This document shows positions 5,727 to 19,264 of a DNA stretch of 21,205 nt, piece by piece (the first letter of the stretch is position 1; the number at the start of each line of letters is the position of its first letter). Both the position numbers and the translations under genes were made by a program. The stretch lies in NCBI RefSeq assembly GCF_001555965.1, contig NZ_LSHX01000026.1, positions 1 to 21,205 of the forward strand. Reading direction: 5' to 3'. This DNA is from Sphingomonas sp. CCH21-G11 (GTDB lineage: Bacteria; Pseudomonadota; Alphaproteobacteria; Sphingomonadales; Sphingomonadaceae). The notes beneath the pieces are model-generated. The model made no database searches. It was not told where the DNA came from and worked only from the letters and a program-made list of their open reading frames with translations.

Positions 5727-6632
5727 TTAATCCCCGAACCCCGTCCGGCGATAGAGCAGCGTGATCGCGACGCGGCGGTTGCGGGGGTCGGCGGGGTTTT
5801 CCTTCACCATCGGTTCGCGGTCGGCGACGCCTTCGATGCGTTCGAACTGGTCCTCGCGGATGCCGCCCTGCGCCAGGCGACGGCGCGTCGCCTCCGCGCG
5901 GCCGCTCGACAGCATCCAGTTGTTCATCGCCGCCGGGTTGCCATAGCCCAGGCTGTCGGTGTGGCCGCGGATCATGATGGGATTGTCCATCCCCTCGATG
6001 CTTTCGGCGACCATGCCGATCAGCGTGCTGGCGTCCGGCACCAGCGCGGTCGTCCCCAGCGCGAACATCGAATAATTGGCGTCGTCGATCAGGTCGATGC
6101 GCATGCCGTCGCGGGTACGCACGAAGCGGACATATTTGGCGATCTTCGCAATGCGCGCGTTCGACTTCATCGTCGCTTCGAGCTTGGAACGCATCTTGGC
6201 GAAATTCTCGCGATCCTCCGCCGCCATCGCCTGGCTTGCCTTCAGGCTGCCCTTGTCGCCGGTGCCGACTTCCTTGCCGCCGGTCGCGCCCGCGGGGATC
6301 GTCAGCGACCGCGTCCCGGTCTGCTGCGCCTTGTGCGGATAGCTGTCGACGTCGGTGATCGATTCGCCGCCGAAAATGCCGTTGGAGCCGGCGCTGTTCT
6401 GCTTGAGCTGGACCAGCGTCGGCGCGAAATAGTCGGCGATGCCCTTGCGCTGCTTCTCGCTGGTCGCGCCGAGCAGCCACATCAGCAGGAAGAACGCCAT
6501 CATCGCGGTGACGAAGTCGGCATAGGCGACCTTCCACGCGCCGCCGTGATGGCCGCCATGCCCCTCGATATAGATTTTCTTGACGATGACCTTGGGCGGC
6601 TGATTGGTCCCGTGGGGTGCGCGCGCGGCCAT
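5727..6632 (-). CDS. motB: Flagellar stator protein MotB
   Basis: MotB pairs with MotA as the torque-generating ion channel anchored to peptidoglycan. The 301-residue product has a His/Gly-rich N-terminus (GHGGHHGGAWKVAYADF), a single membrane helix at about 35-54 carrying the ion-binding aspartate D39 (YADFVTAMMAFFLLMWLL), and a periplasmic OmpA-like domain whose peptidoglycan motif reads IMIRGHTDSLGY then SSGRAEATRRRL. The start at 6632 is chosen because GGGAGGC lies at 6641-6647; the longer reading frame runs back into the inverted repeat and is non-coding. It follows motA on the same strand after 130 bp, nearly all of that gap occupied by a perfect palindrome. Confidence 0.95.
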   Translation of the reverse strand: MAARAPHGTNQPPKVIVKKIYIEGHGGHHGGAWKVAYADFVTAMMAFFLLMWLLGATSEKQRKGIADYFAPTLVQLKQNSAGSNGIFGGESITDVDSYPHKAQQTGTRSLTIPAGATGGKEVGTGDKGSLKASQAMAAEDRENFAKMRSKLEATMKSNARIAKIAKYVRFVRTRDGMRIDLIDDANYSMFALGTTALVPDASTLIGMVAESIEGMDNPIMIRGHTDSLGYGNPAAMNNWMLSSGRAEATRRRLAQGGIREDQFERIEGVADREPMVKENPADPRNRRVAITLLYRRTGFGD

Positions 6633-6654
6633 TATTCTACGCCTCCCGGCGCGA

Positions 6655-6739
6655 CGCGGTACCGGCCCACTCCCCCACCCGGCCACCCACAAGAGTAGCC
6701 TGGCTGGGTGGCCGGGTGGGGGAGTGGGCCGGTACCGCG
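6655..6739. repeat. Perfect 35-bp inverted repeat with 15-nt loop between motA and motB
   Basis: Positions 6655-6689 are the exact reverse complement of 6705-6739, with a 15-nt loop at 6690-6704. Each arm begins CGCGGTACCGGCCCACTCCC on the outer side and is pyrimidine-rich on one strand. Symmetry stops sharply at both ends (A6654 opposite C6740; C6690 opposite C6704). In a motA-motB transcript this would fold into a very stable hairpin starting 23 nt after the motA stop and ending 7 nt before the motB ribosome-binding site. No T-run follows on the minus strand, so it is not a normal intrinsic terminator. A repeated intergenic palindrome (REP/MITE-like) or an mRNA stability/translation element are the main options. 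Confidence 0.97.
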
Positions 6740-6762
6740 CATCGGCGTGAGCCGATCAGTCA

Positions 6763-7626
6763 TCACTTCCCCCGCAGACCGTCGAACACCTCGGCAAAGC
6801 CGGGCTGGTTCTGATGAGCGATTCCCGAGCGTGCGGCTTCGATCACCAGCGGCTGGGGATGGCCGTGCAGCGAGGCGATGATGATCTGCTTGACGACGTG
6901 ATAGATCGCGGCATCGGCGTCGATTACCTGCTGCAGCCGGGTGGCGAGCGGGCCGACGATGCCATAGGCGAGCAGCACGCCCAGAAAGGTGCCGACGAGG
7001 GCCGAACCGATCATCCCGCCCAGGATCGACGGCGGCTTGTCGATCGATCCCATCGTCTTGACCACGCCCAGCACCGCGGCGACGATGCCGAGCGCGGGCA
7101 GCGCGTCGGCCAGGCCCTGCAGCGTGCCCTGCGGACCCTGGACCTCGTGGTGGTGGGTCTTGATCGCGTTGTCCATCACCTCCTCGACCGCGTGCACGTC
7201 GAGCGTGCCCGACGAGACGACGACGAGGCGCAGCGTATCGGCGATCAGGTTGACCAGCGTGTGATCGGCCATCAGGCGCGGATATTCGGCGAAGATCGCG
7301 GAGGATTTGGGATCCTCGACATGCGGCTCGAGCGCGATCGGCCCTTCGGTGCGCAGCATCTTCATCAGCTTGGAAACGAGGAAGATGGTGTCGAGATAGT
7401 CCTGCTTCTTGTATTTCGGGCCCTTCAGCACCTTCATGACGCCGCCGCCGATCGCCTTCAGCTCCTTGCCGGAATTGCCGATGATCAGCGCGCCGACCGC
7501 GGCACCGCCGATGATCAGCATCTCGTGCGGCAGCGCGTGCATGACGGGGCCCAGCGCGCCGCCGGTGATCGCGAATCCGCCGAACACCATCGCCAGCAGG
7601 ACAACCAGGCCAATCAGCGGAAACAT
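6763..7626 (-). CDS. motA: Flagellar stator protein MotA
   Basis: This is a full-length MotA (287 residues, E. coli about 295) with four membrane helices: about 1-22, 33-50, 171-191 and 205-230. The two conserved prolines are present, P177 in ADALPALGIVAAVLGVVKTMGS and P226 in YGIVGPLATR. In the cytoplasmic loop R92 and E100 keep the eight-residue spacing of the E. coli R90/E98 pair that touches FliG. With MotB it converts ion flow into rotation. The start is the family N-terminus (MFPLIGLVVLL); the upstream AGGG is a weak ribosome-binding site. The start lies only 17 bp after the terminator of the flg operon, leaving little room for a promoter. Confidence 0.95.
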   Translation of the reverse strand: MFPLIGLVVLLAMVFGGFAITGGALGPVMHALPHEMLIIGGAAVGALIIGNSGKELKAIGGGVMKVLKGPKYKKQDYLDTIFLVSKLMKMLRTEGPIALEPHVEDPKSSAIFAEYPRLMADHTLVNLIADTLRLVVVSSGTLDVHAVEEVMDNAIKTHHHEVQGPQGTLQGLADALPALGIVAAVLGVVKTMGSIDKPPSILGGMIGSALVGTFLGVLLAYGIVGPLATRLQQVIDADAAIYHVVKQIIIASLHGHPQPLVIEAARSGIAHQNQPGFAEVFDGLRGK

Positions 7627-16115: not shown

Positions 16116-16475
16116 TCATTCACCCTTCAGCGCGCGCGTGATGGTCGAGATGCGACCGTTCAGGAACGCGAGCGTCGATTGATAGGCGATCGCATTTTCG
16201 GCGAACGCGGTCTGTTCGGTGGTCAGCTCAACAGTGTTGCCGTCCAGCCGCGGCTGGAGCGGCTTGCGATACAAGGTCGCGCCGCGGATCGCGCGATCGG
16301 GGGACCCCCCCGGGCCCTCGATCGCCGACATCGCCGCGCGAAAGTCGATGTCCTTCGCCTTGTAACCGGGCGTGGAGGCGTTCGCGATGTTCGACGCGAG
16401 CACGCTCAGGCGCTGCGAACGGACGGCCAGCGCCGCGCCGTGCACTCCAAAAAGCGTATCCTGTGGCATCGTCAT
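16116..16475 (-). CDS. flgB: Proximal rod protein FlgB, first gene of the flg operon
   Basis: FlgB is a proximal rod subunit at the base of the axial structure. The 119-residue product has the signature LSVLASNIANASTPGYKAKD (residues 24-43) and the C-terminal helix (FAENAIAYQSTLAFLNGRIS). GGAGACGA directly precedes the ATG at 16475; a second ATG 6 nt later is possible. A much longer in-frame reading upstream is rejected because it would run through the promoter. Transcription should start near 16496 from the sigma-54 site at 16507-16522, giving a leader of about 21 nt. Confidence 0.94.
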   Translation of the reverse strand: MTMPQDTLFGVHGAALAVRSQRLSVLASNIANASTPGYKAKDIDFRAAMSAIEGPGGSPDRAIRGATLYRKPLQPRLDGNTVELTTEQTAFAENAIAYQSTLAFLNGRISTITRALKGE

Positions 16476-16506
16476 TCGTCTCCAAGGACTATTCCGGTTC
16501 CCGCTC

Positions 16507-16522
16507 AGCAAATGGCGTGCCA
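16507..16522 (-). promoter_or_regulatory. Sigma-54 promoter of the flgB-flgL operon
   Basis: Read on the minus strand the site is TGGCACGCCATTTGCT, a full match to the sigma-54 consensus TGGCACG-N4-TTGCW. The -24 GG is at 16521-16520 and the -12 GC at 16509-16508, 12 bp apart as required. The predicted start is about 16496, just before the flgB ribosome-binding site. Sigma-54 promoters need an AAA+ enhancer-binding activator; candidate enhancer dyads lie upstream at 16576-16611. Confidence 0.93.
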
Positions 16523-16575
16523 ATTGCCCCGATGCCGCCTCGACTGGGCGTTTCGGTGGTCCGGCAGCGGTCGGG

Positions 16576-16611
16576 CGGCAAGATTTTGCCGGGTGCGGCA
16601 GCCGATTGCCG
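16576..16611. promoter_or_regulatory. Twin dyad, probable enhancer shared by the divergent flgB and motA2 promoters
   Basis: Two dyads of the same design lie side by side: CGGCAAGATTTTGCCG at 16576-16591 (perfect 6-4-6 inverted repeat) and CGGCAGCCGATTGCCG at 16596-16611 (one mismatch). Their centres are exactly 20 bp apart, about two helical turns. The midpoint is 73 bp from the flgB -24 GG and 74 bp from the motA2 -24 GG. Spacing and position fit binding sites for a flagellar sigma-54 activator such as FlbD or FleQ; the identity of the protein is inference. Confidence 0.75.
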
Positions 16612-16665
16612 GTCGCCGGTCGCGATGCGGCAATGCGCGGGGTTCCCCGGCGGCTTCGGTCGAAT

Positions 16666-16681
16666 TGGCGCGGGACTTGCT
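16666..16681 (+). promoter_or_regulatory. Sigma-54 promoter of the motA2-motB2-flgA unit
   Basis: TGGCGCGGGACTTGCT differs from the sigma-54 consensus only at the A after TGGC (G here). GG is at 16667-16668 and GC at 16679-16680, the required 12 bp apart. The predicted start is about 16692, which is downstream of the first possible ATG (16685) and only 2 nt before the second (16694). Confidence 0.85.
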
Positions 16682-16693
16682 GATATGAACGCC

Positions 16694-17395
16694 ATGACTC
16701 CACCCGTCGCACCCCTGACCGGCGAAATCGCAGGCCTGGCCCCGGCAATGGCGCCGTTTCTCGATCCGACCGCGCTGGCGATCGTGGTCGGCGGGACGCT
16801 CATCGCCCTGCTGCTGCGCGCGCCGCTCGGCGATCTGGTCCGCGCCGTGCGCGCGCTCGGCACGCTCGCCCGCCGGTCGTTCGATGCCGAGGGCTGCCTG
16901 ACACAGATCGACGCGCTCGCCCGCATTTCCGCGCGCCATGGGATCGTCCCGCTCGACCGGGCGGTGATCGCCGACCCCGATGTCGCCGACGCCATCGCGG
17001 CAATCGTCGACGGCATCGCCCCCGACATGCTCGAGCGCCGCCTGGCCGAGCGCATCGCCGCGCGTGACGAACGCCATGCGGCGGCGATCGGCGTTTGGAC
17101 CGCCGCCGCCGACCTCGCGCCGGCGATGGGCATGGTCGGCACGCTGATCGGCCTGGTGCGGATGTTCAGCGCGATGAGCGATCCGATGGCGATCGGCGGA
17201 TCGATGGCGATCGCGCTGCTCGCCACGCTCTATGGCGCGATCATCGCCTTTCTCGTCGCCAGCCCGATCGCCGGGCGCCTTCGCGCGCGCGCGCGTGCGG
17301 AATCAATTGGCCGGGCCCGGCTGGTGCCGCCGCTGGTCGAACTCGCCGGCCGCGAACAACCGCGCCGCGTCACCATCGCGACCGAGGCGGCATGA
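16694..17395 (+). CDS. Second MotA/PomA-like stator subunit, apparently lacking the first membrane helix
   Basis: The 233-residue product matches the PomA/MotA family: DPTALAIVVGGTLIALLL (residues 24-41), LAPAMGMVGTLIGLVRMF (141-158) and GGSMAIALLATLYGAIIAFL (168-187), with the stator prolines P143 and P191. The helix that normally precedes the DPTALAIVVGG segment is missing, so only three membrane helices are visible instead of four, and no in-frame upstream sequence supplies it. The start at 16694 is chosen because the sigma-54 promoter predicts transcription from about 16692; an ATG at 16685 would add three residues but lies before that point. Its stop overlaps motB2 by 4 nt. The companion MotB-like gene and flgA point to a flagellar role; ion specificity cannot be told. 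Confidence 0.85.
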   Translation: MTPPVAPLTGEIAGLAPAMAPFLDPTALAIVVGGTLIALLLRAPLGDLVRAVRALGTLARRSFDAEGCLTQIDALARISARHGIVPLDRAVIADPDVADAIAAIVDGIAPDMLERRLAERIAARDERHAAAIGVWTAAADLAPAMGMVGTLIGLVRMFSAMSDPMAIGGSMAIALLATLYGAIIAFLVASPIAGRLRARARAESIGRARLVPPLVELAGREQPRRVTIATEAA

Positions 17396-17982
17396 CCGAC
17401 GCCTTCGCCCCGACCGAGGCGGCGCGCCCCTTGTGGCTGACCACGCTCGCCGACCTGTCGCTGCTGCTGCTCGGCTTCTTCGTCCTGCTCCAGTCGATGC
17501 AGGCGGCGGACCGCGCGCGGCTCGCTGCAGGACTGCGCGCGGGGTTCGGCATCGATACGCCCGCCGCGGCCGCACCGATGACGCCGGCCGGCGCGCCGAT
17601 GCCGGTCGATTATGCGCGCGTGGGCGGCTTCGCCCCCGCCAGTGCGATCGTACCGGACACCATCGCGACCTATGCGCAATGGGCCGCGACCGTCGGCAGC
17701 GACCGGCGACTGACGCTGACCGTCACCGGGTCGGTCGACGGATCGCCCCGCGATGTCGACCCGGCGACCGGCAGCGCCGCGATCCTGGCCGCCGACCGCG
17801 CCCGCGCGGTCGCGCGCGCGCTCATCCTGTCGGGTCAGGTCGCCCCCGCCCAGCTTCGCGTCGCGATCGCACCGCCGTCCGAGCATGCCCGTGCGGTCCA
17901 CCTCGCCATCGGCTTCGCGGGCAACCCTGCCCCCGCCGCTTCCACTACCGCCGCCGATCCGGTCGGCCGCGCCCTTCCCTGA
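17392..17982 (+). CDS. Second MotB-like stator subunit with a divergent OmpA-like domain
   Basis: The 196-residue product has one membrane helix at about 14-34 (PLWLTTLADLSLLLLGFFVL) with the MotB-type ion-binding aspartate D21. After a Pro/Ala linker a periplasmic domain at about 95-175 resembles the OmpA/MotB peptidoglycan fold. D116 (TGSVDG) and R136 (ILAADRARAV) could be the two residues that hold diaminopimelate, but they are 20 apart rather than the usual 15. The protein is about 100 residues shorter than MotB at 5727-6632. It overlaps the motA2 gene by 4 nt (ATGA) and flgA lies directly behind it. A TolR/ExbD-type role is an alternative but the flagellar operon makes it less likely. 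Confidence 0.8.
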   Translation: MTDAFAPTEAARPLWLTTLADLSLLLLGFFVLLQSMQAADRARLAAGLRAGFGIDTPAAAAPMTPAGAPMPVDYARVGGFAPASAIVPDTIATYAQWAATVGSDRRLTLTVTGSVDGSPRDVDPATGSAAILAADRARAVARALILSGQVAPAQLRVAIAPPSEHARAVHLAIGFAGNPAPAASTTAADPVGRALP

Positions 17983-18895: not shown

Positions 18896-19199
18896 CGCCC
18901 TGATCCAGGTGATCGAATGCCTGCACGCCGAAATCGCGGCGCTGAAGGCCAACGATGTCGCCGCGCTGGAGCGCGCGACGCAGGCAAAGCTGGTCGCGAT
19001 CGAGACGGTCGCCGCCAACGACAACATGCCCGCGCAGGACCATGAGCTGCGCCTGCTGGCTGCGGAGGCGAACCGGCTCAACGAAACCGCGCGCATCTAC
19101 GTCAACCTGATGGCGGCAAATGTCCGCCGCCGCCTGCAAGTTCTTGCCGGCCACGACGGCACGGCATATCGCGCCGCCGGCGCTGTCGCCTTCGGCTGA
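18879..19199 (+). CDS. flgN: Flagellar export chaperone FlgN-like protein
   Basis: FlgN binds the C-terminal helices of FlgK and FlgL in the cytoplasm and delivers them for export. The 106-residue product is almost entirely helical and fits the FlgN pattern: a long amphipathic helix (ALIQVIECLHAEIAALKAND and following), a loop around NDNMPAQ (residues 47-53), and a second helix ending NETARIYVNLMAANVRRRLQ. Sequence conservation in FlgN is low, so position behind flgM adds much of the support. GGAG lies 6 nt before the ATG. Its last 90 nt contain a pair of dyads that look like a regulatory site for the next gene. Confidence 0.75.
   Translation: MTSRRDALIQVIECLHAEIAALKANDVAALERATQAKLVAIETVAANDNMPAQDHELRLLAAEANRLNETARIYVNLMAANVRRRLQVLAGHDGTAYRAAGAVAFG
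19114..19149. promoter_or_regulatory. Second twin dyad, probable enhancer for the transglycosylase-flhA promoter, inside flgN
   Basis: CGGCAAATGTCCGCCG (19114-19129) and CTGCAAGTTCTTGCCG (19134-19149) repeat the 6-4-6 layout seen at 16576-16611. The first has an intact left half and the second an intact right half; one half of each is degenerate. Their centres are again exactly 20 bp apart, and the midpoint is 119 bp upstream of the -24 GG at 19250-19251. The site overlaps flgN coding sequence. Confidence 0.55.
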
Positions 19200-19248: not shown

Positions 19249-19264
19249 TGGCATGGTCCTTGCT
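19249..19264 (+). promoter_or_regulatory. Sigma-54 promoter of the transglycosylase-flhA unit
   Basis: TGGCATGGTCCTTGCT matches the sigma-54 consensus except for one base in the -24 block (TGGCAT for TGGCAC). GG is at 19250-19251 and GC at 19262-19263, 12 bp apart. The predicted start is about 19275, giving a leader of 26 nt before the ATG at 19301, with AAGGAT close to the start codon. Confidence 0.85.

Follow-up and report, generated by a model that had tools for sequence, protein, structure and literature searches.

A twin-dyad array between divergent sigma-54 promoters of flgB and motA2 is a probable two-site flagellar enhancer in Sphingomonas

In Caulobacter crescentus, the divergent sigma-54 units flaN and flbG reportedly share the downstream elements ftr2 and ftr3, an arrangement attributed to work by Mullin and Newton in 1993. 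The activator FlbD acts at ftr sites in Caulobacter (PMC3930126). For the LuxO-driven qrr genes of Vibrio, tandem enhancer sites are described that loop to a sigma-54 promoter over roughly 80–120 bp; across species, the loop lengths of 61 enhancers fall into groups about 11 bp from one another (PMC4740811). Divergent flagellar promoters are also found in Rhodobacter sphaeroides, where they depend on CtrA (PMC6180460). Leaderless mRNAs are reported from alphaproteobacteria as well, with 375 in Caulobacter (PMC4117421) and 119 in Zymomonas, counted at leaders of up to 5 nt (PMC7566282). In the open-access literature we found no described binding site for the Sphingomonas flagellar regulon.

We analyzed a stretch of 21,205 nt, hereafter the window, which holds a Sphingomonas-like flagellar cluster. 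Two sigma-54 sites point outwards from the interval between flgB and motA2 and enclose two dyads; an initial annotation had located these four elements, and our searches found each of them at the same positions. The features are:

Minus strand: axial operon flgB-C-D-E-F-G-H-I-J-K, then flagellin, motA1 and motB1
Plus strand: motA2, motB2, flgA (weak match), flgM, flgN (weak match), a transglycosylase-like gene and flhA
16116..16475, minus strand: flgB, first gene of the axial operon
16522-16507, minus strand: sigma-54 promoter of flgB, TGGCACGCCATTTGCT, 12/12 consensus positions, predicted start near 16496
16576-16591, no strand: dyad 1, CGGCAAGATTTTGCCG, flgB-proximal and perfect, by sequence match
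16596-16611, no strand: dyad 2, CGGCAGCCGATTGCCG, by sequence match
16666-16681, plus strand: sigma-54 promoter of motA2, TGGCGCGGGACTTGCT, 11/12, predicted start near 16692
16694..17395, plus strand: motA2, MotA/PomA-like stator (PF01618), ATG 13 nt after the -12 C
17398..17982, plus strand: motB2 frame, start codon not fixed, MotB_plug and weak OmpA matches

Sigma-54 sites were scored out of 12 by GG at -24, GC at -12 and the context TGGCACG-N4-TTGCW, and it is by this scale that the window sites reach 12/12 at flgB and 11/12 at motA2. The cluster holds two stator pairs, motA1-motB1 (5727-7626) ending the flgB operon and motA2-motB2 (16694-17982) opposite. Among the matches listed, either by name or for near-top scores, the nearest relatives of MotA2 were Sphingomonas proteins with 60–66% identity.

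To assess conservation we assembled related loci. A MotA2 alignment search gave 18 Sphingomonas-like loci (L001-L018) among the 80 kept, two of which are labelled simply Proteobacteria bacterium and uncultured bacterium. Of 295 genomes of the genus, 262 carry motA2, and upstream regions were taken for 100 of these 262, drawn from the best-scoring matches listed, a choice independent of any dyad. With the window this made 119 loci, 118 of which have a divergent flgB nearby (the exception is L248); removal of 4 duplicates left 114. Both sigma-54 sites are present in all 114. A perfect CGGCAA-N4-TTGCCG lies between the promoters in 109 loci and a copy with one mismatch in the other 5. A dyad pair at 18–24 bp was detected in 77 loci and not in the remaining 37, five of which have a pair at about 32 bp. 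Dinucleotide shuffling of the 114 loci over 20 rounds yielded on average 0 perfect dyads and 0 pairs, and within the window CGGCAR-N4-TTGCCG without mismatch matches at dyad 1 and dyad 2 only. Thus, the array exceeds chance. The initial annotation had named loss of the dyads in close relatives as the outcome that would speak against it; across the 114 loci they are kept between flgB and motA2.

The strict twin pattern occurs in 143 of 295 genus, 54 of 298 family and 1 of 337 class genomes, the last being the reference genome itself (G001), and the reversed twin pattern gave no match in the same three tables (295, 298 and 337 genomes). When 30 of the genus twins were fetched, 22 adjoined flgB, and all of these but one at a contig end had motA2 on their other flank; 6 were near the end of motB2 and 2 resembled a fliK promoter site. 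Among 30 family twins fetched, 22 adjoined flgB.

The geometry of the array was less fixed than the window suggests. Here the dyad centres are 20 bp apart, and the two -24 elements have their outer bases 71.5 and 72.5 bp away from the array midpoint, the same central placement that had been given as 73 and 74 bp. This near-perfect symmetry had been proposed as a feature of the array. It is not conserved, holding within 2 bp in just 15 of the 114 loci, and we reject it as a design feature and regard it as accidental. An exact dyad spacing of 20 bp was rejected too, as it is the low edge of a 20–22 bp range; in relatives the centres are mostly 21–22 bp apart, with five loci at 32.5 bp. The inner spacer of dyad 2 varies from 2 to 6 bp while its centre hardly moves, staying about 21 bp from dyad 1; the variances for a fixed left half-site and for a fixed centre were 0.49 and 0.52.

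We analyzed helical register using the distance between the outer edge of each -24 element and the flgB-proximal perfect dyad, the latter taken at its centre. On the flgB side, 109 of 114 distances fall into four classes, 50–51 bp (35 loci), 60–64 bp (49), 72–73 bp (10) and 81–84 bp (15), and none of the 114 loci has a distance of 52–59, 65–71 or 74–80 bp; the remaining five lie at 152, 155, 189, 226 and 329 bp. Concentration at a period of 10.5 bp was R = 0.87 after thinning to 67 sequence clusters and R = 0.75 for the family loci (21 of 22, one at 292 bp being omitted), Rayleigh values being descriptive only because the loci are related. Independent changes were counted on a tree built with FastTree from pieces of FlgB, MotA2 and FlgC, taking pairs that differ by at least 3 bp. 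Of 23 independent pairs that differ on the flgB side, all 19 with differences of up to 60 bp differ by 9–12 or 21–22 bp, and the other four by 91, 94, 103 and 128 bp. None of 20,000 jittered sets was as good. As a control, the spacing between the flgB promoter and the flgB ATG showed no phase (19 pairs, P 0.65). We rejected turnover from one dyad to the other as the chief source of the stepwise distances, since it predicts 21-bp steps and most steps are 9–12 bp. Six close pairs were aligned to view the indels behind the spacing steps.

On the motA2 side, 41 independent pairs differ, 23 of them by up to 60 bp, and the phase is weaker (P 0.002). Concentration at 10.5 bp, again as a descriptive value, was 0.79 below 110 bp (n=71) and fades with distance, to 0.48 at 110–200 bp (n=28) and 0.39 at 200–300 bp (n=8). 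A single array between two outward promoters, as originally envisaged, thus agrees with phasing on both sides, looser towards motA2. A looped two-site enhancer is expected to keep its dyads in helical register, both mutually and relative to the promoter, and we found both, the former in the 77 of 114 loci with a pair and the latter in the promoter phasing. In 10 loci from one group of relatives (within L154-L253), a perfect dyad lies just 17–18 bp from the motA2 -24 element. This is an odd position for an activator and counts against an enhancer of two promoters; in these 10 loci the abutting dyad might repress instead of activate.

Next, we compared the two promoters. The flgB site scores 12/12 in 97 loci, 11 in 13 and 10 in 4, and the motA2 site 12/12 in 1 locus, 11 in 78, 10 in 34 and 9 in 1. 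The motA2 -24 element is systematically weaker, reading TGGCC in 80 and TGGCA in 21 of 114 loci, whereas the flgB element reads TGGCA in all 114. An in-frame motA2 ATG follows the -12 C at 12 nt (58 loci), 13 nt (32), 14 nt (16) or 15 nt (2), i.e. in 108 of 114 loci. Four of the six misses are excerpts that end too early; the other two are L178, with a Shine-Dalgarno-led motA2 ATG farther on, and L212, where an ATG at 12 nt is in a frame other than that of the match. For flgB the promoter-to-ATG spacing is broad (21–55). A Shine-Dalgarno-like motif precedes 6 of 91 motA2 starts, as against 98 of 113 flgB starts. Sigma-54 transcription usually starts about 12 nt from the -12 C, so that the ATG spacing would give a motA2 leader of 0–3 nt, and from these sequences the motA2 mRNA looks leaderless. 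A public relative (P0001) starts MotA2 at the equivalent of ATG 16685, 3 codons before ATG 16694; by the spacing rule, the start in the window would be ATG 16694. As far as the published accounts of alphaproteobacterial leaderless mRNAs go, the predicted motA2 case would share with them a start codon at or beside the transcription start and no Shine-Dalgarno sequence, and differs in being predicted genus-wide from a sigma-54 promoter at a rigid ATG distance.

The motA2-facing site does not extend to the whole family. Among the wider-family loci, all 20 with motA2 keep the flgB promoter and the dyads, but their best motA2-facing sigma-54 sites reach at most 9/12, so that none attains 10/12. An array serving two promoters is therefore not universal. 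That the axial structure and the second stator would be switched on together, as the initial annotation proposed, is a tentative reading, given these loci, the weaker motA2 -24 element and the predicted leaderless mRNA. L312 and L314, which lack a MotA2 match, each have an outward 11/12 site that faces an operon containing flgM, with dyad distances of 72 and 74 bp; flgA is weakly suggested downstream in L314 only, not in L312. The second promoter may thus be a clade-specific gain or loss.

These loci bear on the explanation that the array enhances flgB alone, with a motA2-facing site that is real but belongs to another site or activator, or is minor. The 20 family loci and the tighter phasing at flgB are what such an arrangement would give. 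It does not account for the short-range phasing of the motA2 distance, seen both in the concentration below 110 bp and in the independent pairs, nor for the reappearance of an outward 11/12 site at L312 and L314. We therefore consider it unlikely.

To find a candidate activator, we searched for sigma-54 activator domains, which gave about 9–13 matches per genome in the four genomes examined. One activator in each of these genomes sits in the flagellar cluster; its orthologues share 66–88% identity, and other activators are at most 45% identical. In a sample of 63 genomes, an orthologue of at least 547 bits was present in 30 of 30 MotA2-positive and 6 of 33 MotA2-negative genomes, with next-best proteins at no more than 244 bits. 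The strict twin occurs in 22 of the 36 genomes with this gene versus 0 of the 27 without it (Fisher 8e-8), and all four MotA2-negative genomes with a twin belong to the six that carry the gene. The gene lies outside the window and is known from relatives only, where it is at most 15 kb from motA2 in 23 of 30 genomes, farther away on the same contig in 4 and on another contig in 3.

All 19 members examined contain AAA+ and Fis-type HTH domains, and none of the 19 matches a Pfam receiver family. The curated FlbD model NF050807 was the best of 27 model matches, but at 314.6 bits, below its cut-off of 750, over profile positions 108–451 of 454; since the cut-off was missed, we name the protein FlbD-like. 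Its N-terminal domain (residues 1–98 in L135) was modelled with a confident fold (pLDDT 86.5), and comparison with the PDB gave weak matches, none significant, with receiver or pseudo-receiver domains at the top of the list (lowest E 0.035). With the full activator model, the match list was filled by AAA+ domains. The earlier proposal of an activator of the FlbD type is strengthened by the co-occurrence with the twin. FlbD and FliX are annotated in Sphingomonas sp. WG (PMC8921679). FliX (PF10768) was found in 11 of the 36 genomes with the FlbD-like gene and is commoner without it (18 of 27), possibly owing to a second flagellar system in many Sphingomonas. This distribution suggests that the genus has two flagellar systems under separate regulators; two independently acquired flagellin clusters have been described there (PMC13015449).

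The number of activator-domain matches per genome leaves room for another regulator at the dyads, an NtrC-type activator or a repressor, with the FlbD-like protein acting elsewhere. This appears improbable, given that the twin is absent from all 27 sampled genomes without the FlbD-like gene, that this gene is usually in the same cluster and that the promoters beside the dyads are sigma-54 promoters of flagellar genes. Finally, RNA or DNA hairpins (terminators or attenuators) rather than protein sites are a very remote prospect: the dyads are perfect inverted repeats, and some relatives have a comparable twin at the motB2/flgA junction, inside the transcribed region and with no sigma-54 site nearby, but the dyads between flgB and motA2 are upstream of both predicted starts and hence outside both mRNAs, and helical register with promoters would be meaningless for a hairpin.

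Our preferred reading is that the twin dyad is a two-site enhancer, likely bound by the FlbD-like protein, for the flgB and motA2 sigma-54 promoters, and we give it a probability of about 0.78. From the sites, their conservation and phasing, the promoter-to-ATG spacing and the co-occurrence with the FlbD-like gene we infer binding, activation and looping, and the transcription starts, as follows. Dimers of the FlbD-like activator would occupy both sites, which face the same side of the helix at a distance of two turns, and assemble an AAA+ ring. By short-range looping the array would act on the strong flgB sigma-54 promoter and, in this lineage, in the opposite direction on the weaker motA2 promoter. 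Because the loops would be short, the promoters would be bound to one face, each having to keep the correct helix face relative to the array, and spacing would evolve only in whole turns. With the motA2 promoter so near the coding start, hardly any leader would be left on the mRNA. A fuller version, to which we would give an even chance, is that one enhancer is selected genus-wide for register with two divergent sigma-54 promoters, one firing a leaderless stator mRNA, and is controlled by an FlbD-like activator whose phosphorylatable receiver was lost and which is independent of FliX.

Additional dyads and sigma-54 sites were found within the window and in relatives. Those in the window are:

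19114..19149, no strand: candidate second array within the flgN 3' end, CGGCAAATGTCCGCCG and CTGCAAGTTCTTGCCG, spacing 20 bp
19249..19264, plus strand: sigma-54 promoter of the transglycosylase-like gene and flhA, TGGCATGGTCCTTGCT, with a counterpart of at least 10/12 in 18 of 18 relatives

The dyad pair lies 100 bp upstream of this third sigma-54 site. As a further array it is tentative, because the flgN codons are also conserved. In L001-L018, the distances from the flgN dyad-like sites to the transglycosylase/flhA promoter were not phased when inspected by eye. In four genomes, other perfect dyads lie twice at fliK, as identified by domain (L090 and L091), and otherwise beside unrelated genes (tRNA synthetase, amidase/RNase E, kinase and dehydrogenase loci), where they are probably due to chance. 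In L090 (1293-1516) and L091, a sigma-54 site precedes fliK and a perfect dyad follows about 200 bp downstream within the coding region, making it a candidate downstream enhancer. Similar downstream-dyad sites occur in L085, L104 and L105; the fliK domain was confirmed in L090 and L091 only. In L095, L103, L120-L123 (near 1501) and L002 (7122), a twin dyad with no adjoining sigma-54 site lies close to the motB2 end, just ahead of a start codon.

By analogy, we call the Sphingomonas array a variant of the divergent ftr2/ftr3 arrangement of Caulobacter. As far as the accounts of that system go, the likeness concerns the arrangement: a pair of activator elements for two divergent sigma-54 flagellar units, with an activator of the FlbD type. 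The genes differ, being the flgB operon and motA2-motB2 instead of flaN and flbG, and the array lies between the promoters, whereas ftr2 and ftr3 are titled downstream elements. Unlike in the Caulobacter FlbD system, the activator has no recognisable receiver and FliX is present in just 11 of 36 carriers. With Vibrio qrr it has in common tandem sites and a sigma-54 promoter at whole-turn spacings, but qrr has one promoter per enhancer and Sphingomonas two divergent ones; here, changes were moreover counted independently on a tree, with an unphased control distance. The Rhodobacter sphaeroides case is likewise one of divergent alphaproteobacterial flagellar promoters with a common regulator, there CtrA. 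Shared elements at divergent sigma-54 units, the action of FlbD at ftr and whole-turn enhancer spacing are known already. New are the two-sided natural phasing, the rigid near-zero motA2 leader and the receiver-poor, mostly FliX-less activator.

To our knowledge, the dependence of sigma-54 activators on helix face has so far been tested mostly with engineered constructs. More than 100 natural loci now reveal allowed and forbidden spacings on both sides of one enhancer, and the same series shows where the face constraint relaxes with loop length. For the Sphingomonas flagellar regulon, the analysis provides a defined motif and a named activator gene. The rigid motA2 promoter-to-ATG distance is a sharp prediction of a sigma-54 leaderless mRNA, which would be a possible way to hold the second stator in proportion to the axial structure.
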